From the IMG/VR virus record IMGVR_UViG_3300035145_002457, positions 1 to 64,000 of that record: a stretch of DNA of 64,000 nucleotides, one strand, 5' to 3'. Shown here piece after piece: positions 34,756 through 63,101 of this stretch. The notes under the pieces were generated by a model. The model was given only the letters and a program-made list of their open reading frames with translations, had not been told where the DNA came from and did not search any database. How positions within the stretch are numbered: the stretch's first letter is position 1; each line of letters starts with the position of its first letter. The DNA comes from a virus. Made by a program: the position numbers and the translations under genes.

Positions 34756-34776
34756 CTTGCAACAAGGGGTTTATAA

Positions 34777-39853: not shown

Positions 39854-40754
39854 TTACGATATTATATATTTAAGTTATGACGAACCTAATGCAGAAAAAA
39901 ATTATGCAGATTTGGTAAGCAAAGTTCCTTGGGCAAAACGTATACATGGAGTTGAAGGATCAGACGCGGCACACAAGGCTTGTGCAAAACTTGCAGAAAC
40001 AGATAGATTTATCACTGTGGATGCAGACAATATTATTAATCCTAAGTTTTTAGAGCAAGAGTTAGACATACCTAAGGATAGTGACTTAGAGCACAGTGTT
40101 ATTAGTTGGTGTGGTAGGAACATAATAAATGGACTGATGTATGGTAACGGCGGATTAAAATGTTGGCCAAAAGAATATGTATTAAACATGCGTACACATG
40201 AAAATGCAGACCCTGATAATCCTCAAGCACAAGTTGATTTTTGTTGGGATCTAAAGTACCTACAGCAAAATAGTTGTTATTCAGATGTGTATAACAATGC
40301 AACACCTCAGCAGGCCTGGAGAGCAGGGTTTCGTGAAGGTGTTAAGATGGCACTAGATCAAGGTGTGAAGCCAACAGTTGAAAACTTCTTACAAGGACAT
40401 TGGAAAAATTTGCATAGACTTTGGATTTGGTTAATGATTGGCTCTGATGTTGAAAATGGTCTATGGGCTATCTACGGCGCAAGAGAAGGCTTAGTTAAAA
40501 CAATGTTAACTGATTGGGATTATGTCAATGTAAGAGATTTTGAATATCTCAATAATTTATGGAAAGAAAAAGAATCTGTAGACTCTAAAATGTTATTAGA
40601 AGCAATAGAAATACTAGGTGCTTCATTAATAGATAATTTGGATATACCTATAGGACAAATGCCGTTAGACGAACAGCAAAGTAAATTTTTCAAAACAGTT
40701 TACCAAAATCCTAGCCGTAACCCTAAACAACAATTTGTGATTGATCCAGAATGA
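39840..40754 (+). CDS. glycosyltransferase-like protein (VDAD-motif family)
   Basis: Residues 1-70 show a GT-A-like nucleotide-binding layout: YDIIYLSYDEPNAEKNYADL, then KRIHGVEGSDAAHKACAKLA and the metal-site-like ITVDADN with Asp at 61 and 63. The central region (ISWCGRNIINGLMYGNGGLKCWP) and the C-terminal half, with AWRAGFREGVKMAL and LWAIYGAREGL, recur in shortened form in the gene at 42090. Related proteins are common in marine T4-like phages near fibre genes. The transferred sugar and acceptor are unknown. It overlaps its neighbours by 14 and 4 bp. Confidence 0.68.
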   Translation: MRIIDYDIIYLSYDEPNAEKNYADLVSKVPWAKRIHGVEGSDAAHKACAKLAETDRFITVDADNIINPKFLEQELDIPKDSDLEHSVISWCGRNIINGLMYGNGGLKCWPKEYVLNMRTHENADPDNPQAQVDFCWDLKYLQQNSCYSDVYNNATPQQAWRAGFREGVKMALDQGVKPTVENFLQGHWKNLHRLWIWLMIGSDVENGLWAIYGAREGLVKTMLTDWDYVNVRDFEYLNNLWKEKESVDSKMLLEAIEILGASLIDNLDIPIGQMPLDEQQSKFFKTVYQNPSRNPKQQFVIDPE

Positions 40755-42097
40755 TTGAATTTAAAGATATAAAAGATGAATTAGATCAAGTAGGGTGCGG
40801 ATTTTGCCTTGCAAAATGGTCGCAGGTTACAATACATTTGGCATCAGGTATTAACCATAGTTGTCATCATGTTGCGGCTCATAAAATTCCGTTAGATGAA
40901 CTTGCAAAAAATCCTAATGCTTTGCACAATACACAGTTTAAGAAAAATCAAAGACGTATGATGTTGAAAAATCAACGTCCGCCGGAGTGTGATTATTGTT
41001 GGAGAATAGAAGACAACACAAATGAGTATAGTGACAGGGTAATTAAGAGCAGTGCAAAGTGGAGTCAGATTGACAAAGAAAAAATTATTGCAAGTGATTG
41101 GATGGATGACATATATCCAAGGTATGTAGAAATAAGTTTTTCAAATGTATGTAATTTTAAATGTGCATATTGCGGCCCGCCTTTCAGTAGTAAGTGGGCA
41201 GAAGAAATAAAGCAACATGGATTTTACAAACTTAAAAGAAAACCCTACAATAGGATAAGAGAAGAAGAAGTTCCTATTCCTGAACGTGAAGAAAATCCTT
41301 ATATTGATGCTTTTTGGAAATGGTTTCCTGAAGCTGTTAAGCATATGCTTGTGTTTAGAATAACAGGCGGTGAGCCTTTGCTTAGTAAACACACTAAAAA
41401 AGTTATTCAGTATCTTAGAGACAACCCACAACCTCAATTAGAATTTGCTATTAACACAAATGCTTGTCCACCAGATAAACTTTGGGAAGAATTTGTTGAT
41501 AGTATACGCGAATTAGAAGAAAATAATTGTGTTAAAAATTTCCAACTTTATACAAGTGCTGAAAGTTTTGGAAAACAAGCAGAGTATGTTAGGTATGGAA
41601 TGAATTTTAAACTTTTTGAAAAAAATCTAAAATATTTTATAAAAAATACACATAAAGCAAGAGTATTTTTTATGAGTGCATTTAACATATTAAGTTTACC
41701 AACACTTATTCCGTATTTGCGTTTTCTTGTGTCTATGAAAAGAATGAAAGAAAACACAGTGTTTGTAGATTGGGCGTATGTAAGGCATCCTGAATTTTTA
41801 GACATAAAGGTAGCAGATAAACAGTTGATAGAAAAATACTTAGAGCCTGCACTAGATTTTATGAAAGAACGTAAAAAGAACTCTAATAGATTTATGGATC
41901 ACGAAATATGGAAACTAAAAAGGATATATGAAGACTGTTTGACTAACCTTTCTAGAGAAAATGATTATACACTTGAGTATTGTCAATTTTGGCAATTTGT
42001 AAATGAATATGACAAAAGGCGAGGCACAAATTTCTTAGAAACATTTCCTGAATTCAAGAATTTTTATAAAAAGTGTGGAGTATATGCCAATGTATGA
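40751..42097 (+). CDS. radical SAM protein, architecture A variant (N-terminal auxiliary Cys half)
   Basis: The radical SAM CxxxCxxC motif is CNFKCAYC (Cys 134, 138, 141), preceded by YVEISFSNV, and the SAM-binding GGEP is at 206-209. The N-terminal ~90 residues carry extra cysteines (C16, C19, C38, C80, C83) resembling the N-terminal auxiliary-cluster half of the other type A proteins here, but C38 is followed by His-His instead of a second Cys. A 4Fe-4S cluster that cleaves SAM to a 5'-deoxyadenosyl radical is expected; the substrate is unknown. The gene lies between two glycosyltransferase-like paralogues, which argues for a sugar- or glycan-related substrate, an inference only. Confidence 0.86.
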   Translation: MIEFKDIKDELDQVGCGFCLAKWSQVTIHLASGINHSCHHVAAHKIPLDELAKNPNALHNTQFKKNQRRMMLKNQRPPECDYCWRIEDNTNEYSDRVIKSSAKWSQIDKEKIIASDWMDDIYPRYVEISFSNVCNFKCAYCGPPFSSKWAEEIKQHGFYKLKRKPYNRIREEEVPIPEREENPYIDAFWKWFPEAVKHMLVFRITGGEPLLSKHTKKVIQYLRDNPQPQLEFAINTNACPPDKLWEEFVDSIRELEENNCVKNFQLYTSAESFGKQAEYVRYGMNFKLFEKNLKYFIKNTHKARVFFMSAFNILSLPTLIPYLRFLVSMKRMKENTVFVDWAYVRHPEFLDIKVADKQLIEKYLEPALDFMKERKKNSNRFMDHEIWKLKRIYEDCLTNLSRENDYTLEYCQFWQFVNEYDKRRGTNFLETFPEFKNFYKKCGVYANV

Positions 42098-42773
42098 TAT
42101 TGCTTTTATAAGTTATAATGAAAAAGAAGCTGATCAAAACTGGGAAAAATTATCAACAAAGTATCCTTATGCAAAACGCACACACGGAGTAAAAGGTATA
42201 CACCAAGCACATATCGCCGCGGCAAATAAAGCAGTAACACCTATGGTATGGTTTGTAGATGCAGATGCTTATATAGAAGATGATTTTGATTTTAGTTATA
42301 TCCCACCAAGGAAGGACCGTGATGCTGTACATGTTTGGCGTAGTCGTAACCCTATTAATGATTTAGTTTATGGATATGGTGGTGTTAAACTATTCCCAAG
42401 GATTGCAACTACAAAAGTGGATGTTAATAAACCTGACATGACTACAAGCATAAGTGAAAAATTTATAGCTATGCCTGAAATAAGCAATACCACTGCTTTT
42501 AATGTAGATCCATTTAGTACTTGGCGCAGTGCATTTAGGGAATGTGCAAAATTAGCAAGCAAAATAATTGATAGACAAAGGGAGGATGAAACAGATGAAA
42601 GACTCAAGACTTGGACAACCGTGGGACACGATAGAGAGTTTGGTGAATATGCGATTAGAGGTGCTCATGACGGTATGGAGTTTGGCCTTTCTAGGGGGTC
42701 TGATCTTCGGTTAATTAATGATTACAAATGGTTAAAGGAACAGTTTGATGAAAACCCAAGAATTATTAGATAG
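42090..42773 (+). CDS. glycosyltransferase-like protein, shorter paralogue of the 39840 gene
   Basis: The sequence opens with YDIAFISYNEKEADQNW and continues with KRTHGVKGIHQAHIAAANKA and WFVDADAYI, matching the gene at 39840 motif by motif. Later shared parts are HVWRSRNPINDLVYGYGGVK, TWRSAFRECAKLA and EYAIRGAHDGMEFGL. I chose the ATG at 42090 because GGAG (42077-42080) is spaced 9 nt away and because it gives the same N-terminus as the paralogue; a GTG at 42075 is less likely. It ends inside the next gene (26-bp overlap). Confidence 0.7.
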   Translation: MYDIAFISYNEKEADQNWEKLSTKYPYAKRTHGVKGIHQAHIAAANKAVTPMVWFVDADAYIEDDFDFSYIPPRKDRDAVHVWRSRNPINDLVYGYGGVKLFPRIATTKVDVNKPDMTTSISEKFIAMPEISNTTAFNVDPFSTWRSAFRECAKLASKIIDRQREDETDERLKTWTTVGHDREFGEYAIRGAHDGMEFGLSRGSDLRLINDYKWLKEQFDENPRIIR

Positions 42774-43656
42774 ATACGAACTGTTATATCCGAAAAATAC
42801 ATATATTTCAGATTTACGCAGAGCATATATTGATAAAGATATCAGTAGTATATTTAGATTGCTTCCTGATACTGTTAACGGCACAAAAGATGATTTACGT
42901 AAAGCAGTTTTAGAAAACAATTTACACAGTATATTTAGATTATGCGAAAATGATAATTTAAGAAAATTATTGCTTGAAGATAATGTTTGGAAGCTCTGGC
43001 CGTTACTTGAAAAATATGTGGACACCCATTTTACCTCAGCATTCAAAAGATTTTTTGCAGAGAATATTAAAATTAACAATCATTGTTTTAGCAGAGGTCA
43101 ACTACAAAGTAAATTATGGTTAATCGAGGAACTCGAGAACACAGGAGTTGATCTTGGTACTGTGTTTATTTGTGCAGGATGGTATGCTACACTTGCTACT
43201 ATGATTTTTGAAAGCAATATGAACGTAGAAAAAATACGTAGCTTTGACATTGACTCAAGTTGTGCTGGAGTTGCTGAAATATTTAACAAACCTTGGGTAA
43301 AGGATGATTGGCAATTTAAAGCATGTACACAGGATATAATGGAAATTGAATGGCAAGGACATAACTATCCTGTTAAACGTAATGACGGCAGTATTTGTAT
43401 GCTATATGATTCACCAGATACAATAATTAACACTAGTTGCGAACACATAAAAGACTTTGATACATGGTTTAGAAAAATACCTGAAGGTAAACTTATATGT
43501 TTACAGAGCAATAATTACGTTGCCCTGGAAGAACATGTAAATTGTGTAAAAGATAGTTTACATTTTGAAGAAATGACACCATTTAGTAAAGTATTGTTTA
43601 CAGGAGAATTGCCGTTAGAAAAATACACGAGGTATATGAGAATTGGAATTAAGTAA
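42748..43656 (+). CDS. probable class I SAM-dependent methyltransferase-like protein
   Basis: A Rossmann-like segment near residues 137-172 (TVFICAGWYATLATMIFES, then IRSFDIDSSCAGVAE) has the order expected of motif I and the acidic end of beta-2 in class I methyltransferases, although motif I lacks the usual GxGxG. The N-terminal ~100 residues are helical (LLDRYELLYPKN, DDLRKAVLENNLHSIFRLC). I chose the ATG at 42748, with AAGGA at 42735-42739, over an in-frame TTG 3 bp earlier. The substrate is unknown. It overlaps both neighbours, within the glycosyltransferase/radical SAM run. Confidence 0.6.
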   Translation: MKTQELLDRYELLYPKNTYISDLRRAYIDKDISSIFRLLPDTVNGTKDDLRKAVLENNLHSIFRLCENDNLRKLLLEDNVWKLWPLLEKYVDTHFTSAFKRFFAENIKINNHCFSRGQLQSKLWLIEELENTGVDLGTVFICAGWYATLATMIFESNMNVEKIRSFDIDSSCAGVAEIFNKPWVKDDWQFKACTQDIMEIEWQGHNYPVKRNDGSICMLYDSPDTIINTSCEHIKDFDTWFRKIPEGKLICLQSNNYVALEEHVNCVKDSLHFEEMTPFSKVLFTGELPLEKYTRYMRIGIK

Positions 43657-43867
43657 TCTTACAGTTAGACAATTGCAACAAGAAAGTGCTAGGGCTTTAA
43701 GTACAATGCAAGCTACTAATAATAACATTTATCAGTTTAATAAACAAGCACATCACAACAGCCATAATTGGTATGCGGCTGTTATAGATTGGTATGTAAA
43801 AGAATATGGAGATTTACCTAGCCGTGCAGGCCCTGGAAAAAATGTAAGGTTAGTTTTAGATGAATAA
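43643..43867 (+). CDS. small hypothetical protein (74 aa), TTG start
   Basis: The protein is mostly helical, with LTVRQLQQESARALSTMQA and NWYAAVIDWYVKEYGDLPSRAG. The start is a TTG at 43643, since an upstream in-frame stop excludes an earlier start and GAGG (43629-43632) is 10 nt upstream; the next ATG would remove a third of the protein. It overlaps the methyltransferase-like gene by 14 bp and the next gene by 8 bp. I do not recognise a function. It is too ordered in sequence and lacks a typical leader/core pattern, so I do not regard it as a clear peptide substrate for the radical SAM enzymes, but it is one of very few short genes here. Confidence 0.62.
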   Translation: MELSNLTVRQLQQESARALSTMQATNNNIYQFNKQAHHNSHNWYAAVIDWYVKEYGDLPSRAGPGKNVRLVLDE

Positions 43868-44996
43868 AATTGTTTTAAAATTTGTTGATGACAACCAATA
43901 CAAACTAAATGTTGCAGTAAAAAATTTTAATTTATCAGCAAACACTGGTGCTAGAATAAATTCTTATTTTAGTACTTCTTTAAATAGTTTATATGACTCT
44001 GTAGATGCTATAGAAGATAATAATATTTTTGACCCTAATAATTTTTATATTTTTCCTATATTCTATTTTCACGAAGAAACAGATCCACAATACGAATATT
44101 GGGTGTCTTTCCTAAAATATTTTGCAAAAAATAACTATGAAAGATTGAAAAACAAAAACACATGTCTTTGTATTTGTGATTTGTTTGAAAGCAGTAGAAA
44201 TCTTGTTAAAGTTGCAGAAGAAATTAAATTTAAATATCCAGAAATAAAAATATGGATATTGACTGCTGATAAAAAACTATCTTCTAAAATTGTAAAAGTA
44301 ATTTATAACGATGTATGGATATCCCAATTCCACCCAAAGACATCCGTAATGCCGTACAAGCCAAAAAAATTATACATTAATCTTACTAGAGTAGCTAGGT
44401 ATCATAGGTGTGTGTTAGCTGATAGTTTAATTAGTAACAATTTACTAAAAATTGGATACAATACCTGGGGTGATGTTTATGATGCTTTTGAAATGTATAA
44501 ACAAGATCATCCTAAAACTAAAATTGCACAAGCAAAATTTGATGTTTTAGATATTGAAGATCTTAGTAAAACAAATCCTAATGATGTAGTTCCAGAATCT
44601 CACTGTAAAAAAAGTTTTTTATATCTTGCAACGGAAACACATGTAGATAGCGGATATATGTTTTTTAGTGAAAAGGTATACAAACCTATTGGTCTTGGTA
44701 TGCCGTTTATTACACTAGGCAATCCAGGTACATTAGAGGATTTAAGACAGCGTGGATTTTTTACTTTTAGTGAATGGTTTGATGAAAGTTATGATTTAGA
44801 CTTACCTTTACAAAAACGCATAGACATTATATGCAAAAACTTAATTACACTTTCAAAATATAGAGCAGATGATCTTATAAAAATACGTAAAGAAATGAAA
44901 GGTATTTTAGAATATAATCAGCAGTTATATGCACTACTACAAAAGAAAAATAGTTTAAAACAAACATTGCGTCTAGCCGCAGAAGGAATACTATGA
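43860..44996 (+). CDS. glycosyltransferase-like protein (GT10/exostosin-like C-terminal donor motif)
   Basis: The C-terminal part (about residues 260-305) contains FLYLATETHVDSGYMFFSEK, VYKPIGLGMPFITLGNPGTL and LRQRGFFTF, a pattern like the donor-binding region of fucosyltransferase-type GT-B enzymes (FxTEK...PI..G). The N-terminal half is an alpha/beta domain (IFPIFYFHEETDPQYEYW, CICDLFESSRNLVKVAEEI) that would hold the acceptor. It is 378 aa and has no membrane segment. It overlaps the small gene upstream by 8 bp and the radical SAM gene downstream by 4 bp (ATGA). Donor identity is not known. Confidence 0.66.
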   Translation: MNKIVLKFVDDNQYKLNVAVKNFNLSANTGARINSYFSTSLNSLYDSVDAIEDNNIFDPNNFYIFPIFYFHEETDPQYEYWVSFLKYFAKNNYERLKNKNTCLCICDLFESSRNLVKVAEEIKFKYPEIKIWILTADKKLSSKIVKVIYNDVWISQFHPKTSVMPYKPKKLYINLTRVARYHRCVLADSLISNNLLKIGYNTWGDVYDAFEMYKQDHPKTKIAQAKFDVLDIEDLSKTNPNDVVPESHCKKSFLYLATETHVDSGYMFFSEKVYKPIGLGMPFITLGNPGTLEDLRQRGFFTFSEWFDESYDLDLPLQKRIDIICKNLITLSKYRADDLIKIRKEMKGILEYNQQLYALLQKKNSLKQTLRLAAEGIL

Positions 44997-45922
44997 AAAA
45001 AATATTTCCTGATAATCCAAACGGCATGAATATAGAGTGGGTGGTGAGTAATATTTGTAATTACTCTTGTAGTTACTGCCAAGAAGACTTATACGGCGGC
45101 ACATCAGGACAACCTGATTATAAAAAAGCATTAGAATTTTTTGATTATATACATAAAGAAGTGCAACCAGGACCCAAGTTACTAAATCTTACAGGTGGTG
45201 AACCAACAGTATGGCCTAAACTTATTCCTTTTTTAAATGAGTTAGACAAAAGTTATTTTACACAACTAACAACTAATGGATCAAGAACCGTGAACTGGTG
45301 GAAACGCTTATTAAATAACTGTGATAATATAGCAAGAGTTGCAATAAGTACTCATCTAGAATTTGCAAGTTTAGATCATATTTTTAATGTAGGAGAAGTA
45401 TTACACAAACGCACCAATCTTACTTTATTACTTTTAGCAGACAAGAAAAACTTTCATATGATTGAAGAATATGCTGAAAAATTTAAAGAGTTAGAATGTT
45501 CTATACTTGTAAAACCTATAAGAGGAATTGATGGGGTGGCACAAGAATATACAGATGAGCAAAAAGCATTTATAAGGTTATTTAAACATTACAGTTCTAA
45601 TATTCCTAATCCAAAAGGAATTCCTACCCATTTAGTTGTAGATGACCAACCAAAACCCTATTCTTATGGATTAGAATTAGTTAGCCAAAACAAACACAGT
45701 TTTCAAGGATGGAAATGTGCTTTAGGTAAAACAAGAGTAGTTATATGGCACAATGGCGATATTAGTCTCGCTCAATGTAGCACAGCAAGGGCAATGGATC
45801 TTGGGAACATATACAAAGGCAATTATTCTATTCCTGATAGTCCTGTAATATGTAAAACTAAGTATTGTACATGTTTACCTGATATACGCATACCTAAGTG
45901 GAGAGAAGATGTACAAGTATGA
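44993..45922 (+). CDS. radical SAM protein, architecture C (GGEP, C-terminal twitch-like Cys)
   Basis: CNYSCSYC (Cys 22, 26, 29) lies close to the N-terminus after IEWVVSNI, followed by LNLTGGEPTVWPK (GGEP at about 68-71) and QLTTNGSRT. The C-terminus has GWKC, an isolated Cys about 20 residues later (LAQCSTA) and CKTKYCTC (Cys 287, 292, 294), a pattern suited to one auxiliary 4Fe-4S cluster. It is a compact 309-residue enzyme with the SAM domain and a twitch-like extension. Paralogues with the same layout are at 59613 and 61980. It overlaps the type B gene by 14 bp. The substrate is unknown. Confidence 0.9.
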   Translation: MKKIFPDNPNGMNIEWVVSNICNYSCSYCQEDLYGGTSGQPDYKKALEFFDYIHKEVQPGPKLLNLTGGEPTVWPKLIPFLNELDKSYFTQLTTNGSRTVNWWKRLLNNCDNIARVAISTHLEFASLDHIFNVGEVLHKRTNLTLLLLADKKNFHMIEEYAEKFKELECSILVKPIRGIDGVAQEYTDEQKAFIRLFKHYSSNIPNPKGIPTHLVVDDQPKPYSYGLELVSQNKHSFQGWKCALGKTRVVIWHNGDISLAQCSTARAMDLGNIYKGNYSIPDSPVICKTKYCTCLPDIRIPKWREDVQV

Positions 45923-46976
45923 AGATATAAAAACAATACATCTTGAAGTTACACAAAACTGTCAAGCAAGTTGTCCTATGTGTGACCGCAACATGAATGG
46001 TGAAGGAATAAATCCTCATATTAATCTTGATGAATTGTCTTATAAAGATTGCACAAACATATTTCCTGCTTCCTTTATAAAACAATTAGACACAATGTAT
46101 ATGTGTGGTAACTTAGGCGATCCAATTGTAGCACGAGATACTTTAGAAATTTTTGAATACTTTCGTTGGGCTAATCCCAACATGTGGTTAAGCATGAATA
46201 CAAACGCAGGAGCAAGAGATGAACAATGGTGGACTAAACTGGCCCATGTCTTTGGAAGAATGGGGGCTGTTATTTTTAGTGTGGACGGTCTTAGTGATAC
46301 GAATCATTTATATAGACAAGGGGTAGTTTGGGAAAATGTTGAACGCAACATGCAAGCATTTATTAACGCAGGCGGCAGAGCTCGATGGGACTTCCTAATA
46401 TTCGAACACAACCAACACCAAGTAGAAGAAGCTGAAGCCCTTGCTAATAAATGGGGTTGTGAAAAATTTATTAAAAAGAAAACAGGCAGATTTGTAGACG
46501 CAAAAACAAATAAGAAAGAAAGTCATCAAGCCAAAGACCGTAAAGGCAAAGACTCAGCTGAACTTAAAAAACCCGACGAGAAATATCAAAACAAAGCACT
46601 TACTAAACAAGAAACAATTCTAAAAAAATATGGATCAATGGATGCTTATTATGATGCAACTCCTGTGATATGTAAAGTAAAAAAAGAAAACAGTTTGTTT
46701 ATCACAGCAGAAGGCCTGGCATTGCCTTGTTGTTGGACTGCTGGTAGAATGTACAAGTGGTGGCATAAAGATCCTAAGGTAGAACAGATATGGGATTTTA
46801 TTCCAGATAAACGTGCATTAGATGCACGTCAAGGATTACAAAAAGTTTTTGATACAGGTATATTTGAACAAATACAAGACAGTTGGAATAAACCTAGTTG
46901 TGCGGAAGGCAAGTTAAAAGTGTGTGCAACAAAGTGTGGTGCCGAGTTTGATCCTTTCACAGAACAGTTCAAATAA
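45909..46976 (+). CDS. radical SAM/SPASM-like protein, architecture B (GDP in place of GGEP)
   Basis: The cluster motif is CQASCPMC (Cys 18, 22, 25). Where GGEP normally lies there is MCGNLGDP. Strongly conserved family segments follow: FSVDGLSDTNHLYR, RARWDFLIFEHNQHQVEEAE. The C-terminal third has cysteines in a SPASM-like order: VICKVKKE, LALPCCWTAGRM and PSC-x7-CATKC (Cys 331, 339, 343), suited to auxiliary iron-sulfur clusters. Paralogues are at 53883 and 58504, and a rearranged one at 50296. It precedes a type A gene by 8 bp, the same B-A order as 53883/54988. Confidence 0.9.
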   Translation: MYKYEDIKTIHLEVTQNCQASCPMCDRNMNGEGINPHINLDELSYKDCTNIFPASFIKQLDTMYMCGNLGDPIVARDTLEIFEYFRWANPNMWLSMNTNAGARDEQWWTKLAHVFGRMGAVIFSVDGLSDTNHLYRQGVVWENVERNMQAFINAGGRARWDFLIFEHNQHQVEEAEALANKWGCEKFIKKKTGRFVDAKTNKKESHQAKDRKGKDSAELKKPDEKYQNKALTKQETILKKYGSMDAYYDATPVICKVKKENSLFITAEGLALPCCWTAGRMYKWWHKDPKVEQIWDFIPDKRALDARQGLQKVFDTGIFEQIQDSWNKPSCAEGKLKVCATKCGAEFDPFTEQFK

Positions 46977-46984
46977 GTAAGTAT

Positions 46985-48388: not shown

Positions 48389-48978
48389 AGTTAGCAGTAT
48401 TTGGATGTAGTCATTCGGGATGCGGTCCCAGAGATTGGAATGAAACTTGGCCATATCATTTATACAAAACCACAAAATTAGAAATACACAATTTTGCAGT
48501 TGGAGGAACTAGTACGCAGTTCCAATACGGGTTTTTTAAAAAACATATTGATAAATTTGATAAATTTATTTTTCAATATACTAGCCCGTACAGATTTACT
48601 GAATATAGAACAATAACTGAACAAAACGGTGATTTACCTACGGATATGGATAAATTTAGAAAATATACGTACTTCGCTCAAGGTACAGGTAATTATTTAA
48701 TATGTAACACATCTGCAAATTTTAACAAAAGATACAAAAGTTGGATAAAAAAAGACAAGGGCGAAATTGAAAAAGAATACAAAAACATTTGCAAAGAAGT
48801 AGATGATCATGAAAAATGTTTATTTTCTTTTCATTTTGTTAGAAATCCAACTAATGTAAAAGGTATAGAAATTATGCAAAACAATTTCCCTGAGATTATA
48901 CCGAATCCAAATATACATCTTAGTAGCGAAGAAAATAAGATTATTGCAAACTATATAAAGGAAAAATGTAACCTATGA
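48385..48978 (+). CDS. SGNH/GDSL hydrolase-like protein
   Basis: The N-terminus MKLAVFGCSHSGCG looks like block I of SGNH hydrolases with Ser in place (GCSHS), followed by NFAVGGTSTQF, a likely block II Gly, and a C-terminal PNIHLSSEENKII resembling block V, where the usual Asp of DxxH is replaced. I chose the ATG at 48385, which overlaps the upstream TGA (ATGA), over a longer in-frame start at 48334, because the strand carrying the nucleophile should be N-terminal. Such enzymes hydrolyse or transfer acyl esters, often on glycans. Catalysis is uncertain because block V is degenerate. It separates two type A radical SAM genes. Confidence 0.55.
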   Translation: MKLAVFGCSHSGCGPRDWNETWPYHLYKTTKLEIHNFAVGGTSTQFQYGFFKKHIDKFDKFIFQYTSPYRFTEYRTITEQNGDLPTDMDKFRKYTYFAQGTGNYLICNTSANFNKRYKSWIKKDKGEIEKEYKNICKEVDDHEKCLFSFHFVRNPTNVKGIEIMQNNFPEIIPNPNIHLSSEENKIIANYIKEKCNL

Positions 48979-51875: not shown

Positions 51876-51876
51876 G

Positions 51877-54995: not shown

Positions 54996-56265
54996 TTACA
55001 AAAAAGCAGACGATATAAGTCCATCAATGTGTATTATGCCTTGGATTGGTTTAGCAACTGATGCAAGCGGCGGAATACGACCTTGTTGTTGGATGCAAGC
55101 AATTACTCCTGACAAGTTTCATGGTAGCCCTGCAGAATACAAAGACAGCAAGTACCTCAATGATATGAAAGAGGCTTTTCTTAGAGGAGAATATCCAGAT
55201 ATATGTTCTAGATGTAAACATGATGATGAACGGGGTATGCAAACTAAAAGAACTAGAGAAAATAAATCATGGCAAGACACCGGCGGAGACTGGAATAAAC
55301 TAGACGAACAAGAATTTACTATGATTGATTTACGCCTAAGTAACATTTGTAATTTAGGATGTGTAATGTGTGGACCTAAAAGCAGTAGTTTTATTAGACA
55401 AGAAACAATAGATGTATTAGGTCAACAAGGTAAAACTGCTGAACATTATCAATATCAATATGACGGAACAAAGAATAAAGATTTACTGAATCCTTACACT
55501 GATCAAGATATAGAGGAAATAATTGAAATTATTCCTAAAAATGCAAGGATATATTGCACAGGAGGAGAACCTAGTTTAGTTAAGAAGACTACAAGACTAT
55601 TAGAGAGATTATTAGAAAAAGGATACAATGAAACTGTAATTTTACAATTTAATAGTAACTTTCAAGCATTAAACCAAAAATGGTATGATCTTTTATCTCA
55701 ATTTAAAGGTGACATGCTACCTAGTATTGATGGTATAGGCAAAACTGCTGAATATGTAAGATATCCATGTGATTGGAATCGTGTAGATAATAACATAAGA
55801 GAATTTATCAAGCAGTGTGGCAAAACTTGGACAGTAAAAATTATGCCAACTACAAGTATTGTTAGTGTTTTTGGATTTAAAGATATGTGGGATTGGTGGT
55901 ACAACGATTTAAGAGTAAACTTGCCATATATAGATGAAGCACTTCGTGGAGAAAAAGGCGATTGGGCAATGCGTACCCAATGTAATAATAGACTTGTAAG
56001 TCCTCCGTATTTTGACATAAGAAATTTACCAGAAGCCGGTAAACAAAAAGTTATAGAAGATATTGATTACATAATTAAAAATTACAGCAAGTATTGGCAA
56101 GTAGGTAATGAACGTAACTATCTTAATGATGTAAAGAAACAAGTTATGTTAGAACCAAATGAGCCATTTTCTCGAACTATAGAAAATTTAAATAGGCTAG
56201 ATGCTGTTAGAGGAAACAATTGGAGAGAAAGTTTGCCAGAACTAGCGAGATTAACAAATGGATAA
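54988..56265 (+). CDS. radical SAM protein, architecture A
   Basis: N-terminal auxiliary cysteines are MCIMPWIGL (C15), RPCCWMQ (C33, C34) and CSRCKHDDE (C73, C76). The SAM cluster motif is CNLGCVMC (121, 125, 128), with the SAM-binding motif YCTGGEPSL. Later conserved parts are LPSIDGIGKTAEYVRYP and the C-terminal DAVRGNNWRESLPELARL. The protein is 425 residues long. It is coupled to the type B gene upstream and to the SDR-like gene downstream by 8-bp overlaps. The substrate is unknown; the N-terminal cysteine half probably holds a second iron-sulfur cluster, by analogy with twitch domains. Confidence 0.9.
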   Translation: MSDYKKADDISPSMCIMPWIGLATDASGGIRPCCWMQAITPDKFHGSPAEYKDSKYLNDMKEAFLRGEYPDICSRCKHDDERGMQTKRTRENKSWQDTGGDWNKLDEQEFTMIDLRLSNICNLGCVMCGPKSSSFIRQETIDVLGQQGKTAEHYQYQYDGTKNKDLLNPYTDQDIEEIIEIIPKNARIYCTGGEPSLVKKTTRLLERLLEKGYNETVILQFNSNFQALNQKWYDLLSQFKGDMLPSIDGIGKTAEYVRYPCDWNRVDNNIREFIKQCGKTWTVKIMPTTSIVSVFGFKDMWDWWYNDLRVNLPYIDEALRGEKGDWAMRTQCNNRLVSPPYFDIRNLPEAGKQKVIEDIDYIIKNYSKYWQVGNERNYLNDVKKQVMLEPNEPFSRTIENLNRLDAVRGNNWRESLPELARLTNG

Positions 56266-56815
56266 AATATTAGTTGCAGGAAATCCTGAGTACGGGTTAT
56301 CACAAGGCATAAAATCATTATTTCCTGATGCAAAATTTGTCAGTAGAGACTATGGAGGGTTTGATTTATCTATTCCAAGTACACAAAGAGAAATTGCAGA
56401 AATGAGTATGGACTATGATGTGTTTATTGCTGTAAGTTGTATATGGAGATTTGCCCAAACAGAGTATGTCCAAGAAGTGGCAAAACGTTGGATAGAAAGA
56501 AAGCATGGCTACATAATTGCTGTAGGTTCTAGTGCAGACACACCAGTTAAAGGTAGTGCATGGATGTACCCTGCAGAAAAAAAAGCGTTAAGAGCATATT
56601 GTAGGCAATTAAGTCAAATCAGTGCAGGAGAAAATGATTGCAATTTGAAAGTAACATATTTAAGTCCTGGTAATATTCACACCCCTAAACAAGACGAAAA
56701 ATTACCTGATGTTAAAAAATTAGAATCAGTATATATTGCCAATACTATAAAATGGTTATTAGAACAACCTAAAGATGTTAACATAAGCGAAATTTGCATG
56801 GATAGGATGCCATGA
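56258..56815 (+). CDS. short-chain dehydrogenase/reductase-like protein
   Basis: The 185-residue sequence has an N-terminal nucleotide-binding-like turn (ILVAGNPEYGLSQGI), an active-site-like VGSSAD (Ser 91/92), a YxxxK pair (Tyr104, Lys108 in MYPAEKK) and a late YLSPGNIHTP, the order found in SDR enzymes. The usual TGxxxGxG is altered to AGNPEYGLS, and the protein is shorter than the common 240-260 residues, so cofactor binding is uncertain. An NAD(P)-linked oxidoreductase acting on an alcohol, ketone or sugar is the natural guess. It overlaps the type A gene by 8 bp and the next gene by 4 bp. Confidence 0.65.
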   Translation: MDKILVAGNPEYGLSQGIKSLFPDAKFVSRDYGGFDLSIPSTQREIAEMSMDYDVFIAVSCIWRFAQTEYVQEVAKRWIERKHGYIIAVGSSADTPVKGSAWMYPAEKKALRAYCRQLSQISAGENDCNLKVTYLSPGNIHTPKQDEKLPDVKKLESVYIANTIKWLLEQPKDVNISEICMDRMP

Positions 56816-57399
56816 ATATATTCTATTTGAATAACACTCCTACAAAATTCTACAAAACACTAAAAAAGATTGCAGACAAATATAAAAACAAACCATTTGA
56901 AATAATAATGTCTGATAGACATCATTCAACTGATTTAAGCGAAGAAGATTGCTTTGTACTTAATCAATTTTTACCTTTGCAATCTCCTGGTATATCCTTT
57001 AATATGATTAATCAAGCGTTAGAAACTTCTCATATAGATAGACAACGAAAAACAGCATTGCAAGTAGCAGTAAAATCAGATCCAATGAAACACTTTGCAT
57101 ATGCTGTAAAAAATGAATTTTTAGATGAACTTGTGCCACTTGAAATTGCTGATGGTTTTAGAAACAAGCGATATGTGGATTGGGAAAATGGCGGAGATGA
57201 GCGTCCTATGTTTTACCATTATAATCCGTGTTATAATGATCATATAGCAATAGAGAAAATGAAAGCATATCTTTGTAATACTACTTTACCGCATGGAGGG
57301 TTGCATACTATACCAGGCAAACATGAAAGATTATTTTTTAGTTTTTCCTTTTTACAAACAATAGATGAAGTTAAAGAAAAATTTAAGGATTGGCTCTAA
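56812..57399 (+). CDS. Fe(II)/2-oxoglutarate-dependent oxygenase-like protein, divergent paralogue
   Basis: By itself the protein is hard to place, but SHIDRQRKTALQVAVK (H74, D76) and LPHGGLHT (H161) with Arg173 in HERLFFSFSF repeat the pattern of the oxygenase-like gene at 53258: HxDRxR, then a conserved V..K, then PHGG 87 residues later and Arg shortly after. The metal triad is therefore intact. The first ~70 residues differ between the two. A separate oxidation step in the same pathway is a reasonable inference. It overlaps the SDR-like gene by 4 bp and touches the type A gene at its stop codon. Confidence 0.62.
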   Translation: MNIFYLNNTPTKFYKTLKKIADKYKNKPFEIIMSDRHHSTDLSEEDCFVLNQFLPLQSPGISFNMINQALETSHIDRQRKTALQVAVKSDPMKHFAYAVKNEFLDELVPLEIADGFRNKRYVDWENGGDERPMFYHYNPCYNDHIAIEKMKAYLCNTTLPHGGLHTIPGKHERLFFSFSFLQTIDEVKEKFKDWL

Positions 57400-58499
57400 T
57401 GGGATTACTTTGTAGCGCATTAAAAAATAGCATAAGTATAGCCCCTACGGGTGAAATCCGTCCTTGCTATTTGCATGATTTTAATCATGACTACAATGTT
57501 GATAAAATATCTATACAAGATTATAGAGAAAAAGTAGCTCTACCTATGTATAAAGAAATGAAAAAAACAGGAAAATTACCAAAAGGTTGTTGGAAGTGTA
57601 AGTCGATCAAACATTATGAAATATTTAACAAGTATTTGAAATGGTATGAGGCAAACGAAAGCGAAGAATTATTAATGTTAGATATTTCATTAAGTAATCT
57701 TTGTAATAACGGTTGTATAATGTGTAATAAGAAAAATAGCTCTTATTATAAAAAAATAGAAAAGAATATGTTTGTATTTCCTATACAAACCGGAGCGCAA
57801 GAGCTTAAAATTAATCATTCAAAAAAAGTTTTTGAAGATTTGTGTAGTAATGTAAAGTCATTAAAAGAGTTATATATTAAAGGCGGAGAACCCACTTTAG
57901 ATACTAAAGTACAAGACATATTAGATTATCTTATTAGTATTGATAAGACTGATACTGTTATAAAATTAAACACAAACTTAACAAATACAAATAAAAGATT
58001 TATGGATAGTATTAGTAAATTTCCTTATAAAAATGTTAGTTTCAGTATCGATGCAAAAGGAGAATTAAACAATGTATTGCGGCATCCTAGTAAGTTTAAT
58101 AGTGTGATTAAAAATTTGCAAAGATGGACAGAAATTAAAACCGAACAAGATCGATATAATATTTCTAGTGTGATAAGCATTTATAATCTATTTAAATATC
58201 CAGAATTAAAAAAATATTTAAAACAAAATTTTAATGAATATATTCATTTCTATCACATTAATATTTTGCAAACACCAGAATATATGGATATCTCTCATGT
58301 TAATAAAAAAATATTCAATCAAGCTCTTTTACTCTATGATGTTAGCGATAGAAAAACACTAATAGATTATTATAATAATAAAAAGACAAAAAATAATATC
58401 AATGATTACGAGGTATTTACAAAACGAAGTATACAATGGTTTAATAGTAGAGGATATGATCTATCTATAACTGGTAATCCGTTTTTTGAAGGAATATAA
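57399..58499 (+). CDS. radical SAM protein, architecture A (reduced N-terminal Cys set)
   Basis: The SAM cluster motif is CNNGCIMC (102, 106, 109) and the SAM-binding motif is YIKGGEPTL. The N-terminal auxiliary set is incomplete: C5, RPCYLHD (C23, with Tyr where other copies have a second Cys) and CWKCKSI (C64, C67). I chose the ATG at 57399, 9 nt after AAGGA (57385-57389), over an in-frame TTG at 57390. At 366 residues it is the shortest type A copy. A conserved VSFSIDAKGELNNVLRHPS corresponds to the family SIDA segment. It lies 4 bp before a type B gene. The loss of one ligand suggests a changed auxiliary cluster. Confidence 0.88.
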   Translation: MGLLCSALKNSISIAPTGEIRPCYLHDFNHDYNVDKISIQDYREKVALPMYKEMKKTGKLPKGCWKCKSIKHYEIFNKYLKWYEANESEELLMLDISLSNLCNNGCIMCNKKNSSYYKKIEKNMFVFPIQTGAQELKINHSKKVFEDLCSNVKSLKELYIKGGEPTLDTKVQDILDYLISIDKTDTVIKLNTNLTNTNKRFMDSISKFPYKNVSFSIDAKGELNNVLRHPSKFNSVIKNLQRWTEIKTEQDRYNISSVISIYNLFKYPELKKYLKQNFNEYIHFYHINILQTPEYMDISHVNKKIFNQALLLYDVSDRKTLIDYYNNKKTKNNINDYEVFTKRSIQWFNSRGYDLSITGNPFFEGI

Positions 58500-58503
58500 T
58501 AAA

Positions 58504-59616
58504 ATGTATCATACATTCGAAACTGTACAAGACATGCATGTAGAAATAACTAATCGCTGTAATGCGGCTTGTCCTATGTGTGCAAGAAATGATTTCGGAG
58601 GAAAAACTAAAGAAGATCTTGAGCTTGACGAATGGAGCAAGGATGATATTGATCGTATTTTTAACGGACAGTTTCCTAAATTAGAAAATGTAATGTTTTG
58701 CGGCACTCACGGAGATCCATGTGTAGCAGAGCATACTTTATATGCTATAGATAAAATTAAAACAAACACAGATGCAACAGTTGAATTTTATTCTAATGCT
58801 AGTATGCGTACTCCTGAATGGTGGAGTAATCTTGGAAGTTTCATGAATCAAAAGAAACCAGACCATTGGCATTATAGGAAAAACGATCTTGCAATTTTTA
58901 GTATTGACGGCTTAGCCGACACAAATCATTTATATAGACGAAGAACTAATTTTGAAAAAATTATGGAAAATGCAGAAGCATATCTAAAAGCAGGTGGTAT
59001 TGCACGTTGGGATTTTATTGTGTTTAAACACAACGAACATCAAGTAGAAGAAGCAGAAGCACTTGCTAAAAAGATGGGATTCAAACAGTTCCGCATACGC
59101 AAAACAAGCCGTTTTGATTACTCACCTGACGGACCAGACAAATGGCGTGTGAAGGACAAAAACGGTAATGTAGAATACTATCTTGAACCTCCTGGCGAAA
59201 AGTATCGTAATCCTCAAAGTCAAAAGTTTCAAGAACTTACAGAGCAATACGGTACTATAGAAAAGTATTATGATGTTGCACCTATTGAGTGTTTGTATAA
59301 AAACGAATTCCGTAGAATATATGTAAATGCATATGCACAAGTATTCCCTTGCTGTTATATCTCAGACGATAGTTATCCCCATAAAAATAAAATTTACCTT
59401 GACACACAAGAAAAGATATTCAAAAAGTATGGGGTAGGCTTCAACAGTTTACGTAAATATGATTGGAATGATATTCTTAATCATCCATGGTTTGCTGGAG
59501 ACTTAGAACAAAGTTGGCAATCAGATCTTGCAGGAGGAAAATTAATGCGTTGTGCAAGAACATGTGGTAAAGGATATTCACCTATAAAAAGCCAAAGTAA
59601 GGATACAAACTTATGA
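58504..59616 (+). CDS. radical SAM/SPASM-like protein, architecture B
   Basis: The SAM cluster motif is CNAACPMC (19, 23, 26), with MFCGTHGDP at the GGEP position. FSIDGLADTNHLYR and IARWDFIVFKHNEHQVEEAE match the other type B copies. The C-terminus carries IECLYKNE, VFPCCYISDD and RCARTCGKGY, a SPASM-like cysteine order. I chose the ATG at 58504, 10 nt after AAGGA, over an in-frame TTG at 58486. It overlaps the type C gene by 4 bp. It is the best-conserved type B copy here and is useful as the reference for the permuted copy at 50296. Confidence 0.9.
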   Translation: MYHTFETVQDMHVEITNRCNAACPMCARNDFGGKTKEDLELDEWSKDDIDRIFNGQFPKLENVMFCGTHGDPCVAEHTLYAIDKIKTNTDATVEFYSNASMRTPEWWSNLGSFMNQKKPDHWHYRKNDLAIFSIDGLADTNHLYRRRTNFEKIMENAEAYLKAGGIARWDFIVFKHNEHQVEEAEALAKKMGFKQFRIRKTSRFDYSPDGPDKWRVKDKNGNVEYYLEPPGEKYRNPQSQKFQELTEQYGTIEKYYDVAPIECLYKNEFRRIYVNAYAQVFPCCYISDDSYPHKNKIYLDTQEKIFKKYGVGFNSLRKYDWNDILNHPWFAGDLEQSWQSDLAGGKLMRCARTCGKGYSPIKSQSKDTNL

Positions 59617-60791
59617 ATCCAGTAGCGAGTTATTTTAAATTTAATCCAACAGGAGCATTTTCTGTGGATTGGTATATAGGAAAACGTTGCAACTTTAGTT
59701 GTAGTTATTGTGTCGATTATTTGCACGATAATCATTCACCTCATGTGCCTTTAGAGAAAATGAAAATACTTGCAGACGCTATTATCGACAAACATGGTAA
59801 AAATGTATTTTGGAGTTTGACTGGAGGAGAACCTACAGTGAATCCTAAATTTATGGATCTTTGCAAATACATAAAAAAAGAAAGAGGTGCAAGATTTGTT
59901 AGTCTTACTACTAACGGAACAAGGACAGCCGCCTACTACAAAGAATTATATCAATACATAGATGGCATTACACTAAGTTTTCATTTTGAACATATACAAG
60001 ATAGAATAGATGAGTATATTGACAAATGTATACAGATAGAAGACTGGCGTAGAGAATGGAATGGTATAATGGAAGAAACAGAAAACTTTCCAGATTGGGA
60101 TAATGGTAAAGTAAGGAAAACATTAATTCTTCGTTTTATGGTATACCCAGGGCAGTTTGAAAATGTAGAACGCATGGAAAAAGCATTTAGAGATCATGGC
60201 ATAACAAATATTGAACACAGATATATACGACCACCAGGTGGAAATTCAAATGAACTTATGCCTGATGTAAAGTTAGACTTTGGTAAAAATCACGATAAAA
60301 TGGATCCTAAAAAATTAGTTTCTTCTGAAGATAAAGCAGAAATAAAAGCAATTGAAACAAGAGAAAAACAATTCTATAAAGAAGGCGAAAAAGAAAAAAT
60401 TAAAGATCTATATACATCTAAAATTACACCAGACAAGCGTAAATTAAAATTTTGGTTTGTTGATGAAAATGGTGAATATAAAGATGAAGATTTTCATTAT
60501 AATGAATTAAATTTTGATAAAAAGAATAATTATGAAGGATGGTTATGTTGGGCAGGTGTAAAGCATCTCAAGGTGACACCAACAGGAGATATCTATATAG
60601 GTAGTTGTCATGTAGGTGGCAAACGTGGTAACATTTACGAAATAGAAAGTTTAGATTTGCCTACTGAGCCTATACGTTGTCCTAAATGGCGTTGTACTGA
60701 TAACTTAGATTTAAAAGTTCCAAAAATTAAAGATTGGGATCATTATCATTTAGTCAAAGATATGATAGAGTGGACTGATCAAAAGTCATAG
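59613..60791 (+). CDS. radical SAM protein, architecture C
   Basis: CNFSCSYC (26, 30, 33) follows FSVDWYIGKR, with SLTGGEPTVNPK and SLTTNGTRT as in the other type C copies. Compared with the 44993 gene, it has a charged insert of about 100 residues (EIKAIETREKQFYKEGEKEK region). The C-terminus has GWLCWAG, IGSCHVGG, RGNIYEI and CPKWRC, suited to one auxiliary cluster. It is the last plus-strand gene of the long coupled run and ends in a 13-bp convergent overlap with the minus-strand radical SAM gene. The substrate is unknown. Confidence 0.9.
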   Translation: MNPVASYFKFNPTGAFSVDWYIGKRCNFSCSYCVDYLHDNHSPHVPLEKMKILADAIIDKHGKNVFWSLTGGEPTVNPKFMDLCKYIKKERGARFVSLTTNGTRTAAYYKELYQYIDGITLSFHFEHIQDRIDEYIDKCIQIEDWRREWNGIMEETENFPDWDNGKVRKTLILRFMVYPGQFENVERMEKAFRDHGITNIEHRYIRPPGGNSNELMPDVKLDFGKNHDKMDPKKLVSSEDKAEIKAIETREKQFYKEGEKEKIKDLYTSKITPDKRKLKFWFVDENGEYKDEDFHYNELNFDKKNNYEGWLCWAGVKHLKVTPTGDIYIGSCHVGGKRGNIYEIESLDLPTEPIRCPKWRCTDNLDLKVPKIKDWDHYHLVKDMIEWTDQKS

Positions 60792-61915
60792 TAACTACAA
60801 ACTTCTTTAAAATTTTGATTCCTTGACTTATCCCAGAATTCTGTATGTGACCAAAATTTATCTAGTAAGTGTGTTTTGTCTTCGCCGTCCATATAAGTTG
60901 TGATATAATTACACAGATTTTTAATCTTTTCATTTGTATAGTTATAATTTGCATATTTGTCTCTAATAATTTGTTTTTGTTTTTCTGGTAGGACAGTCAC
61001 ACTCAAATATAATGGATAGGTTAGATGTGTAGGATTAATTATAATGCCTCTTTTGTCTAACCATTCTAATGTTTCTGGCAAGTGATAAGCGTTGTAAATA
61101 GTTACTGTTGGTCTTGCAATAACAGTCATTCCTATTTCTTCACTTACTTCAACATATTTTTCAATGTTCTTAAGAGCTTCTTCGTGTTTTGTTAAGTGCC
61201 GTTGATATTCGTTTTCTTTGCCTACAATGCTATCAAGGCTGACAGCAAGTTCAACGTGATCAAACTGTTTCCAAGTTTCTACAATTTTTTTCTTAGGCCA
61301 TACTGTACAATTTGTACTGTAATTTAACCTTATATTTTTTGCATAACCTTTCTCAACAGCATGTTCTAATAGCGTCCAATGATCTTTGATTATTAAAGGT
61401 TCGCCACCTGTAAATTTAATATACTTCATATCTTTAAGATGCGGATATATGCTATCTAAATTTGCATGGGTATGTCTAGTTTTAGCAAAGGTTTTGCCGT
61501 GATATTCTTGTTCTTCGTCGAATAGTTTATGACTATATCTACTATCGCACATTCTGCACATTAGATTACAATCGTTACTTAGACTTAGTTCTAGGTATTC
61601 TAATTTGTAATCTTTAGTGTTAACAGTATGAGTGCCTACCTTAGGGTGTTCATTTAATCTCATACGTAGGCTTTTTTTGTTGTTATCTTCTTCTTCATAA
61701 CAACGTCTACAACCTTCTAACCGTTCTCCTGCAAGTATGCGTTTACGAAGATCGTTTTGAAAATCGCTGTTAAAAATATTTTGAATAGTGTCGTTATCAA
61801 GAGTGTGTTCTTTAGGTCTGTGATCTTCTAAAAACCTACAACAAGGCTTAACACGCCCTGTACCATCTACCATTTGATGATTCCATAACACTGAACAGAA
61901 AGTTTTGCTGACCAT
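60779..61915 (-). CDS. radical SAM protein, architecture A, inverted
   Basis: The N-terminal auxiliary set is FCSVLWNHQ (C7), KPCCRFL (C25, C26) and CRRCYEEED (C69, C72). The SAM cluster motif is CNLMCRMC (116, 120, 123) and the SAM-binding motif KFTGGEPLI. Later parts (LAVSLDSIVGKENEYQRH, NFKEVCSYYDF) fit the family. It is the only cluster gene on the minus strand. The ATG at 61915 has no visible ribosome-binding site, and a sigma70-type promoter ends only 7 bp upstream, so a nearly leaderless transcript is predicted. Its last 13 bp overlap the end of the type C gene at 59613. Confidence 0.9.
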   Translation of the reverse strand: MVSKTFCSVLWNHQMVDGTGRVKPCCRFLEDHRPKEHTLDNDTIQNIFNSDFQNDLRKRILAGERLEGCRRCYEEEDNNKKSLRMRLNEHPKVGTHTVNTKDYKLEYLELSLSNDCNLMCRMCDSRYSHKLFDEEQEYHGKTFAKTRHTHANLDSIYPHLKDMKYIKFTGGEPLIIKDHWTLLEHAVEKGYAKNIRLNYSTNCTVWPKKKIVETWKQFDHVELAVSLDSIVGKENEYQRHLTKHEEALKNIEKYVEVSEEIGMTVIARPTVTIYNAYHLPETLEWLDKRGIIINPTHLTYPLYLSVTVLPEKQKQIIRDKYANYNYTNEKIKNLCNYITTYMDGEDKTHLLDKFWSHTEFWDKSRNQNFKEVCSYYDF

Positions 61916-61922
61916 AAATATA

Positions 61923-61951
61923 TTTATATACGTGGTTTATTTGTCTTGCAA
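61923..61951 (-). promoter_or_regulatory. promoter of the inverted radical SAM gene, shared -35
   Basis: On the minus strand TTGCAA (61951-61946), a 17-bp spacer and TATAAA (61928-61923) form a sigma70-like promoter. The -10 also lies in an exact late core TATAAATA (61928-61921). Transcription would start next to the ATG at 61915, leaving no room for a ribosome-binding site. Confidence 0.6.
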
Positions 61952-61974
61952 AACTGGTGTTAAGGTGCTATAAT
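61946..61974 (+). promoter_or_regulatory. promoter of the 61980 radical SAM gene, shared palindromic -35
   Basis: TTGCAA (61946-61951), a 17-bp spacer and a consensus TATAAT (61969-61974) point at the ATG at 61980. TTGCAA is its own reverse complement, so the same six bases act as the -35 of both divergent promoters. The predicted start point falls at about 61980-61981, on the start codon itself. Confidence 0.68.
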
Positions 61975-61979
61975 ATATT

Positions 61980-63101
61980 ATGAATGAAGACTTAAAATGG
62001 AGCAATTATGACTTCTCTAAGATCCCTTTTGATGACATTGTCAGTGTGGGTCAACGGACTTTGCTTTATCGTGATATTTTTACTGTATCATGGCTACTTG
62101 GAAGGTTCTGTAACTACAGATGCTCCTACTGCTGGCCTTATGCCAGAAGCGATCGTAAAGACCACCGTCCTACCGAGCTCTGCTTGCTTACAGTGGATGA
62201 AATCAAACGTCAAGCTAGACTCAACGGTTTCAATTCTTTCCACTTCTCCTTGTCAGGAGGAGAACCTACTTTCCATCCTGGATACTTGGACATACTAAAG
62301 CATCTAGCAGATGATGTAGCAAATACAAATTATACTAGTATACACATGACTAGTAATTGTAGTCGTCCTATGAAATGGTTTAAAACGTATGTTGAATATG
62401 CAAAGCCCTTTCATAGAGCAAGTATAACAGCAAGTCTGCACACAGAACATGTAAATACAAAGGAGAAGATGCAGGATTTTGCAGACAAACTAATCTTGTG
62501 TCAAGAGCATGATGTACAAATTACAATCAATCAAGTTATGGTTCCAGAATGGTTTGAAAGAGATTGGGAAAACGCTTTATTCTTTCACGAGCAAGGAATC
62601 AATGTCACACTCAAGCCTCAATCGGATCCGACTGCGTCAAGGGTGGTTGATGGATACACTGGGGATCAACTTAAAAAACTTTACAACGGCATGCCACAAA
62701 GAGCATACACAGAAAGCAAACGTAAATGGCAAGAAAGACCTAAACCGTCATTCGAAGTACCTAAAGGAATAATGGGTAAAAATGATGCAAGTGTGCCTTG
62801 GCACATGCAAGTAGAATTAAAAGACTCTAAAGGTAAAAAGTGGTATATGGACCAAGCAGAACGCTTTAATGCCTTTAATTTCAACAATTTTGAAGGATGG
62901 CGGTGTAACGCCGGTTTTAGCGGAATAATAATACGGGAGCCTGACGGTTCGGTAAAAAGGAGTTATTCTTGCCATGATGCACCCCTTGGTAACATAGAAA
63001 CAGGTTTTAACCTATTTAAAGAGCCAAAAAAATGTATTACAAAAAGTTGCGTAAGTAGTGCTGATAGTAAAATACCTAAAGTAAAAAATGGAAACATATA
63101 G
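61980..63101 (+). CDS. radical SAM protein, architecture C, possibly leaderless
   Basis: CNYRCSYC (44, 48, 51) follows FTVSWLLGRF, then FSLSGGEPTFHPG and HMTSNCSRP. The C-terminal part has GWRC, YSCHDAP, GNIETGF and CITKSC, matching the twitch-like end of the other type C copies. The N-terminus is ~20 residues longer than in those. No ribosome-binding site is visible; an in-frame stop lies 9 bp upstream of the ATG, and no other ATG precedes the cluster motif. The first ~300 bp are about 43% G+C by hand count, clearly richer than the rest of the window and with many C-ending codons, suggesting a recently acquired or recombined 5' part. Confidence 0.88.
   Translation: MNEDLKWSNYDFSKIPFDDIVSVGQRTLLYRDIFTVSWLLGRFCNYRCSYCWPYARSDRKDHRPTELCLLTVDEIKRQARLNGFNSFHFSLSGGEPTFHPGYLDILKHLADDVANTNYTSIHMTSNCSRPMKWFKTYVEYAKPFHRASITASLHTEHVNTKEKMQDFADKLILCQEHDVQITINQVMVPEWFERDWENALFFHEQGINVTLKPQSDPTASRVVDGYTGDQLKKLYNGMPQRAYTESKRKWQERPKPSFEVPKGIMGKNDASVPWHMQVELKDSKGKKWYMDQAERFNAFNFNNFEGWRCNAGFSGIIIREPDGSVKRSYSCHDAPLGNIETGFNLFKEPKKCITKSCVSSADSKIPKVKNGNI

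Follow-up and report, generated by a model that had tools for sequence, protein, structure and literature searches.

A radical SAM array beside the tail fiber genes of a T4-like phage

Radical S-adenosylmethionine (SAM) enzymes of the twitch/SPASM type perform chemistry that is within reach of few other enzymes, and no need for large numbers of them is known in phages. Here, we analyzed bases 1 to 64,000 (referred to as "the window") of the 84,586-base virus record IMGVR_UViG_3300035145_002457 from IMG/VR, an 84.6-kb fragment in which a dense array of radical SAM genes lies next to the tail fiber genes. Among the 46 main open reading frames (ORFs) of the window, 14 carry the motif CxxxCxxC, all of them at 40751-63101; the motif occurs in 0 of the other 32, and shuffling residues within ORFs gives an expectation of 0.075. 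A first-pass annotation, made from the letters alone, had reported the same 14 genes, and profile searches agree with it: all 14 proteins match PF04055 at E < 1e-4, 10 of them above the Pfam gathering cut-off (those starting at 45909, 46985, 50296, and 53883 fall below it).

The 14 proteins form three groups. Group A comprises the seven that pass the curated 170-bit cut-off of NF033640, the N-terminal twitch radical SAM family: R1 (40751-42097, +; 316 bits, with a PF04055 match), R4 (46985-48388, +; 423 bits despite its sub-cut-off PF04055 score), R5 (48975-50303, +; 284 bits), R7 (51877-53274, +; 362 bits), R9 (54988-56265, +; 284 bits), R10 (57390-58499, +; 176 bits, barely above the cut-off), and the divergent R13 (60779-61915, -; 324 bits). 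Group B has CxxxCPxC and lacks GG[ED], the SAM-binding GGE motif that is present in the 10 other proteins; it consists of R3 (45909-46976), R6 (50296-51183; N-terminal cysteine set, PF04055 E of 7.6e-5), R8 (53883-54995; PF04055 match), and R11 (58486-59616; PF04055 32.9 bits), all on the plus strand. Group C, with CNxxCSYC, is made up of R2 (44993-45922; PF04055 39.8 bits), R12 (59613-60791; 57.4 bits), and R14 (61980-63101), also on the plus strand. All 14 proteins have a second set of cysteines that fits one auxiliary cluster; it lies toward the N terminus in 8 and toward the C terminus in 6, a pattern that twitch domains would be expected to show. Identity among the paralogues is only about 18 to 35%, so the genes are not recent copies, and recent gene amplification is ruled out. 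A fifteenth radical SAM gene, of the B12-binding type, lies just past the window (contig positions 68251-69723, -) and is absent from the first-pass annotation. Direct scans with profile A1 and with A6 found no conserved stretch and were uninformative.

The operon starts at 36315, upstream of the region described previously, and its first part encodes glycosyltransferases. Its first gene, w36315 (36315-37238, +), encodes a beta-rich fiber-region protein that is a candidate acceptor; the AlphaFold2 model (predicted local distance difference test [pLDDT] score of 87) matches other phage predicted structures exclusively and has no informative match in the PDB. It is followed by the 115-amino-acid (aa) partner protein w37296 (37296-37643, +; 27 viral loci). 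GT8a (37640-38488, +) and GT8b (38475-39305, +) belong to one family, whose profile (A8) matches glycogenin at 4.5e-7 and retains an invariant DxD, as is typical of GT8 glycosyltransferases. After protein x (39305-39853, +), which has no assigned function and has a counterpart at the equivalent position of another viral array, G001 (27%), comes GT39 (39840-40754, +), a protein like GT-A fold glycosyltransferases with an invariant DxD and a confident model (pLDDT 94). Foldseek matched GT39 to ThuS/SunS, RmlT, and WrtF with probabilities of 0.93 to 0.99 but template modeling (TM) scores of about 0.35. GT42 (42075-42773, +) is of the GT39 family (family 2, with 56 viral and 7 bacterial loci), and MT42 (42745-43656, +; 61 viral and 11 bacterial loci) is methyltransferase-like, with weak matches to methyltransferases in the PDB and 27% identity to a "putative methyltransferase" of Pelagibacter phage Mosig.

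Other genes are interleaved with the radical SAM genes, and the idea that they encode tailoring enzymes holds in part. A nitroreductase (51183-51875, +; PF00881) and a short-chain dehydrogenase/reductase (SDR; 56258-56815, +; PF00106) score above their Pfam cut-offs, which adds to the GT8 profile match and the GT-A fold. The rest have no match: an array protein without Pfam or NCBIfam family (43860-44996, +); by eye, an SGNH-like protein without family match (48334-48978, +) and two weakly 2-oxoglutarate-oxygenase-like proteins (53210-53896, +, without Pfam or NCBIfam match; 56812-57399, +, without Pfam match); and a protein that looks sulfotransferase-like (63088-63906, +), which has no Pfam or PHROG match and is 59% identical to a protein of array G017.

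The array appears to share its timing with the fibers. The sequence ATAAATA is 5-fold depleted in the window (8 found versus 43 expected), and for 6 of the 8 copies a gene in the same orientation starts at most 60 bases downstream (binomial p of about 1e-8), as if stray late promoters had been purged. One copy heads w36315, which opens a series of genes, most of them overlapping, that extends from 36315 to 60791; the T4-type late promoter element there, TATAAATA (36281-36288, +), occurs in exact form just twice in the window and stands 26 to 27 nucleotides (nt) before the ATG at 36315. Two further copies face outwards before R14 (+) and R13 (-), as divergent T4-type late promoter elements at 61914-61928. 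Because ATAAATA is the T4 late-promoter sequence, the array is probably expressed late, together with the fibers.

The label of T4-like phage is supported by a late sigma factor (gp55-like; 4130-4963, -; phrog_12791, 5.8e-79), the baseplate wedge protein gp25, SbcC/D-like proteins, baseplate genes, and the TATAAATA late promoters. Preceding the array are three tail-fiber-like genes (starting at 30432, 32819, and 34777, together 30432-36285, +; PHROG tail fiber or virion matches) and the conserved tail-region gene w29813 (29813-30427, +; phrog_11259), which has ATAAATA 23 nt upstream and whose nearest cultured relatives are in the jumbo phages Phosso and Atu_ph07 (53 to 57%). Rfam and tRNA scans were uninformative.

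An invariant core and a variable periphery in viral arrays

At least 104 IMG/VR contigs encode a relative of R4 (the best 80 at 68 to 100% identity), including records of 275 to 330 kb, and group B relatives are found at more than 580 places in viral contigs. PF04055 genes per record number 25 (76.8 kb), 23 (179.6 kb), 20 (59.0 kb), 18 (275 kb), and 16 (330 kb). Thus, these database scans rule out that the array is unique, and the impression that a set of this size is exceptional in a phage locus did not survive them: the core is present in at least 104 viral contigs, several of which have 16 to 25 radical SAM genes, and a 12-gene case had already been printed in 2017 (PMC5332604).

The six arrays G001, G018, G017, G013, G012, and G009 all include R3, R4, and R14 together with genes of the GT39/42 and/or MT42 families, and their other radical SAM genes differ in number and kind. 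Across 35 long R4 loci, R3 is found in 35 (at ≥55% identity), GT42 in 33, and MT42 in 29, and between 4 and 12 radical SAM genes (median, 9) lie within about 21 kb of R4. R14 is single copy in 16 of 18 large viral records. Between the phage arrays examined, identity is 63 to 78% for R3, 79 to 87% for R4, and 78 to 90% for R14, compared with 37 to 51% for the fibers. The left flank is conserved as well, in the order giant protein, w29813, three fiber genes, w36315, w37296, GT8a, GT8b, x, GT39, and R1. Among 50,697 phage records, R14, R7, GT39, w36315, w37296, GT8a, and SP (a small protein described below) have no match, R4 has matches of 23 to 27% only, and MT42 has the single 27% match in Mosig. 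The invariant core, which is new here, is R3-R4-R14 with GT-A glycosyltransferases and the methyltransferase-like protein, set among variable genes for radical SAM enzymes and other oxidoreductases.

The arrangement is not an assembly artifact that joins phage and non-phage DNA. An independent record (L210/G338) has R4 and R14 that are 100% identical and equal spacing of its radical SAM genes, which rules out a chimera, and in G018 the array is joined to the same tail genes as in the window.

Genes that often recur across the arrays are R5, R7, R8, R11, R12, R13, and the SDR. Their recurrent partners also include varied oxidoreductases, a nitroreductase, a carbamoyltransferase, and a PP-loop ATPase, and this variety, with the SDR, would suit synthesis of a small diffusible molecule or cofactor in the infected cell that alters the host or its competitors. 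We regard this as very unlikely, as no export, carrier-protein, or resistance gene was recognized, and the linkage to fiber genes and glycosyltransferases would be left unexplained.

Several observations concern neighboring and partner genes. The giant protein (4,978 aa; window 14851-29787, +) has one FG-GAP_2 match and one weak CBM_5_12 match, and its homologues occupy the equivalent place in G018 and G017; a search for DNA repeats in its gene was uninformative. To the right of the window are a UDP-glucose/GDP-mannose dehydrogenase (L001:2175-3236, -) and an Asp/Asn beta-hydroxylase (L001:10-396, +). Farther on, GTP cyclohydrolase I and a QueE-like protein (motif CNFRCMNF; missed by the first-pass annotation) are encoded in overlapping frames (L001:14021-15605; contig 78021-79605, -), a pair that may point to deazaguanine chemistry. 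A carbamoyltransferase family (L086:19827-21050, -) and a QueC/NAD-synthase-like PP-loop family (L091:6564-7316, -) recur in viral arrays and in loci of Bdellovibrionota, a phylum that has bacterial predators among its members.

Core genes in Bdellovibrionota and a small phage protein

A scan of genome contigs detected many loci in Bdellovibrionota, some of which have rpoB or uvrA as a neighbor on a long contig. R14 is present in 17 of 291 Bdellovibrionota genomes (54 to 69% identity), as one copy in 16 and two fragments in the seventeenth. R4 is encoded in 15 of the 291, all within the R14 set (p of 3e-23), and the GT39/42 family in 18, of which 14 have R14 (p of 8e-18); the co-occurrence of core genes is significant at p < 1e-13, with kinship ignored in all these values. 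Bacterial R3 and SDR homologues share 42 to 47% and 43 to 59% identity, respectively.

One contig, G205, extends this likeness to the fiber region. There, pheS-pheT is followed directly, in phage order, by R4, a GT42/GT39 fusion, R14, homologues of w36315 (30%), w37296 (28%; E of 4e-35), GT8a (32%), and GT8b (36%), a gene for a 163-aa protein, a GT39 homologue (49%), and a further three genes for radical SAM enzymes. The cassette w36315-w37296-GT8-GT8-GT39 is thus syntenic in one Bdellovibrionota genome, in which the tail gene w29813 was not found. Phage contamination of these genomes is not supported because, in a quick tree whose rooting is unsure, R14 of the phages forms its own clade (99% by the Shimodaira-Hasegawa-like approximate likelihood ratio test [SH-aLRT]) with G205 outside, the loci lie beside rpoB, uvrA, and pheST, and w29813 is absent. 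We set aside as probably phage the contigs of the public bacterial metagenome-assembled genomes MED657 and MED685 (NZHE01000012.1 [L083/L108] and NZGL01000008.1 [L119]), which have phage-like arrays and are probably misbinned. In Microcoleus (L133:10004-11587), an R3-like radical SAM domain is fused to TPR repeats, as also in Tychonema, Lyngbya, and other Oscillatoriales; no useful context was gained from these fusions.

The bacterial neighborhoods point to glycans. Among 83 proteins near the bacterial core, in a sample picked partly by hand from related genomes that are not independent, 12 are Glycos_transf_2 (GT2), an approximately 30-fold enrichment (p of 1e-14 to 8e-12) relative to a background of about 0.5% of genes in these genomes (229 in 50.4 Mb). 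The core that uncultured jumbo T4-like marine phages share with some Bdellovibrionota suggests a common, undescribed route by which an unusual glycan is made or decorated. Such neighborhoods would also be compatible with remodeling of the host surface, in which the enzymes act on lipid-linked or nucleotide sugars of the host, such as lipopolysaccharide or capsule precursors, and thereby prevent superinfection or change the receptor. The radical SAM cassettes and GT8 genes of pelagimyophage host-recognition clusters have been read in this way (PMC7029224), UGD is found within or beside many arrays, and an R3 homologue is present in a Deltaproteobacterial polysaccharide-type cluster. We nevertheless consider host-surface remodeling doubtful, given that surface exclusion would be expected early, that array and fiber genes have late promoters in common, and that Pfam scans of array proteins in 36315-63906 matched no polymerase, flippase, or ABC exporter.

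A third account concerns peptides and turns on SP, a 74-aa protein whose gene (43643-43867, +) begins with a TTG that overlaps MT42, precedes the ORF at 43860, and was neither annotated nor noticed previously. SP is conserved across 49 loci (mean column identity of 78%) and matches no known family; in most loci its gene follows MT42 and immediately precedes R3 or R2. This position suggests that the radical SAM enzymes could mature SP, or modify a fiber protein directly, by cross-links, D-residues, or hydroxylation, with glycosyltransferases as ancillary enzymes. Twitch/SPASM maturases are typical of ribosomally synthesized and post-translationally modified peptides (RiPPs), the closest solved structure to profile A1 is the sactisynthase SkfB, and the top folds for GT39 include the peptide S-glycosyltransferases ThuS/SunS. 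RiPP precursors, however, pair a conserved leader with a variable core region beside the maturase, whereas SP is conserved end to end. Furthermore, SP was not found in the G001 array or in 16 of the 17 core-bearing Bdellovibrionota genomes (the seventeenth has one marginal partial match, E of 0.002), which rules it out as a universal substrate. We consider peptide maturation unlikely.

A proposed glycan pathway and its relation to known systems

We propose, with a probability of roughly 0.4, that the array is a phage-encoded, late-expressed pathway for building and tailoring a glycan that decorates most likely virion proteins of the fiber region. The conserved core, the tight operon, the glycosyltransferases, and the strong bacterial co-occurrence support the broader idea of a large system for biosynthesis or modification. 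The first-pass annotation had offered fiber decoration, modification of host surface glycans, and a small molecule as roles. Glycan work is favored because of the GT8 and GT-A genes and the GT2-rich bacterial neighborhoods, and fiber decoration is favored over early alteration of the host because the late promoters are shared with the fiber genes.

In the proposed pathway, the core (R3, R4, R14, GT39, GT42, and MT42) would assemble a common, unusual sugar-containing unit, which the variable radical SAM enzymes may modify differently from phage to phage, by oxidation, epimerization, deoxygenation, or formation of C-C bonds. The GT8 and GT-A enzymes, presumably cytosolic, would then attach the product, most likely to fiber-region proteins such as w36315. 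An acceptor of this type would be made from the same late operon, and in the bacterium an adhesin-like counterpart may be decorated. All of this chemistry, like the acceptor, is inferred.

Several points weigh against this pathway. Late promoters leave room for earlier transcription from host-type promoters, GT39 resembles known GT-A structures only distantly (TM of about 0.35), twitch/SPASM radical SAM enzymes are best known as peptide maturases, and the GT2 sample has the limits given above. Acceptor and product are candidates only. Moreover, just 1 of 291 Bdellovibrionota genomes has w36315 and w37296 alongside the core, so the acceptor elsewhere in the phylum would have to differ; with w37296 in 1 of 291, the pair is ruled out as a universal acceptor there.

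A bolder extension, which we hold to be rather improbable, is that jumbo phages and some Bdellovibrionota share a dedicated system of radical SAM enzymes and glycosyltransferases that decorates attachment fibers with a glycan whose modifications are heavy and variable, altering the binding of the fibers or hiding them. In this view, the core would make a conserved unit, and interchangeable radical SAM genes would diversify it. In any case, a three-enzyme core common to jumbo phages and Bdellovibrionota offers a small, testable way to approach what may be a new class of modification of glycans or proteins, and it hints at a possible purpose for the radical SAM genes often noted in uncultured marine viruses.

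Known systems resemble the array in part. Seven of the 14 array proteins exceed the cut-off of NF033640, yet this is a family name without a function, and groups B and C fall outside it. The GT8 (glycogenin-type) and GT-A enzymes (ThuS/SunS, RmlT, and WrtF) are alike in profile or fold and in the DxD motif, although their global similarity to the array proteins is weak. The pelagimyophage host recognition cluster (Zaragoza-Solas et al. 2020, PMC7029224) is a hypervariable region in which radical SAM cassettes likewise occur with fibers and GT8 genes, but no set this large is described there; R14, GT39, SP, w36315, w37296, and GT8a have no match among the 50,697 phage records, and MT42 has one (27%, Mosig). 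The 183-kb genome TARA_ERS488813_N000010 is, similarly, a marine T4-like phage genome with a dozen radical SAM genes (12; Nishimura et al. 2017, PMC5332604); compared by description only, it differs in that one sentence, on Fe-S usage, is given to them and no core, array, partners, promoters, or bacterial counterpart is described. Relative to these two reports (PMC5332604 and PMC7029224), the core, its bacterial counterpart, the late promoters, and the SP gene are new.

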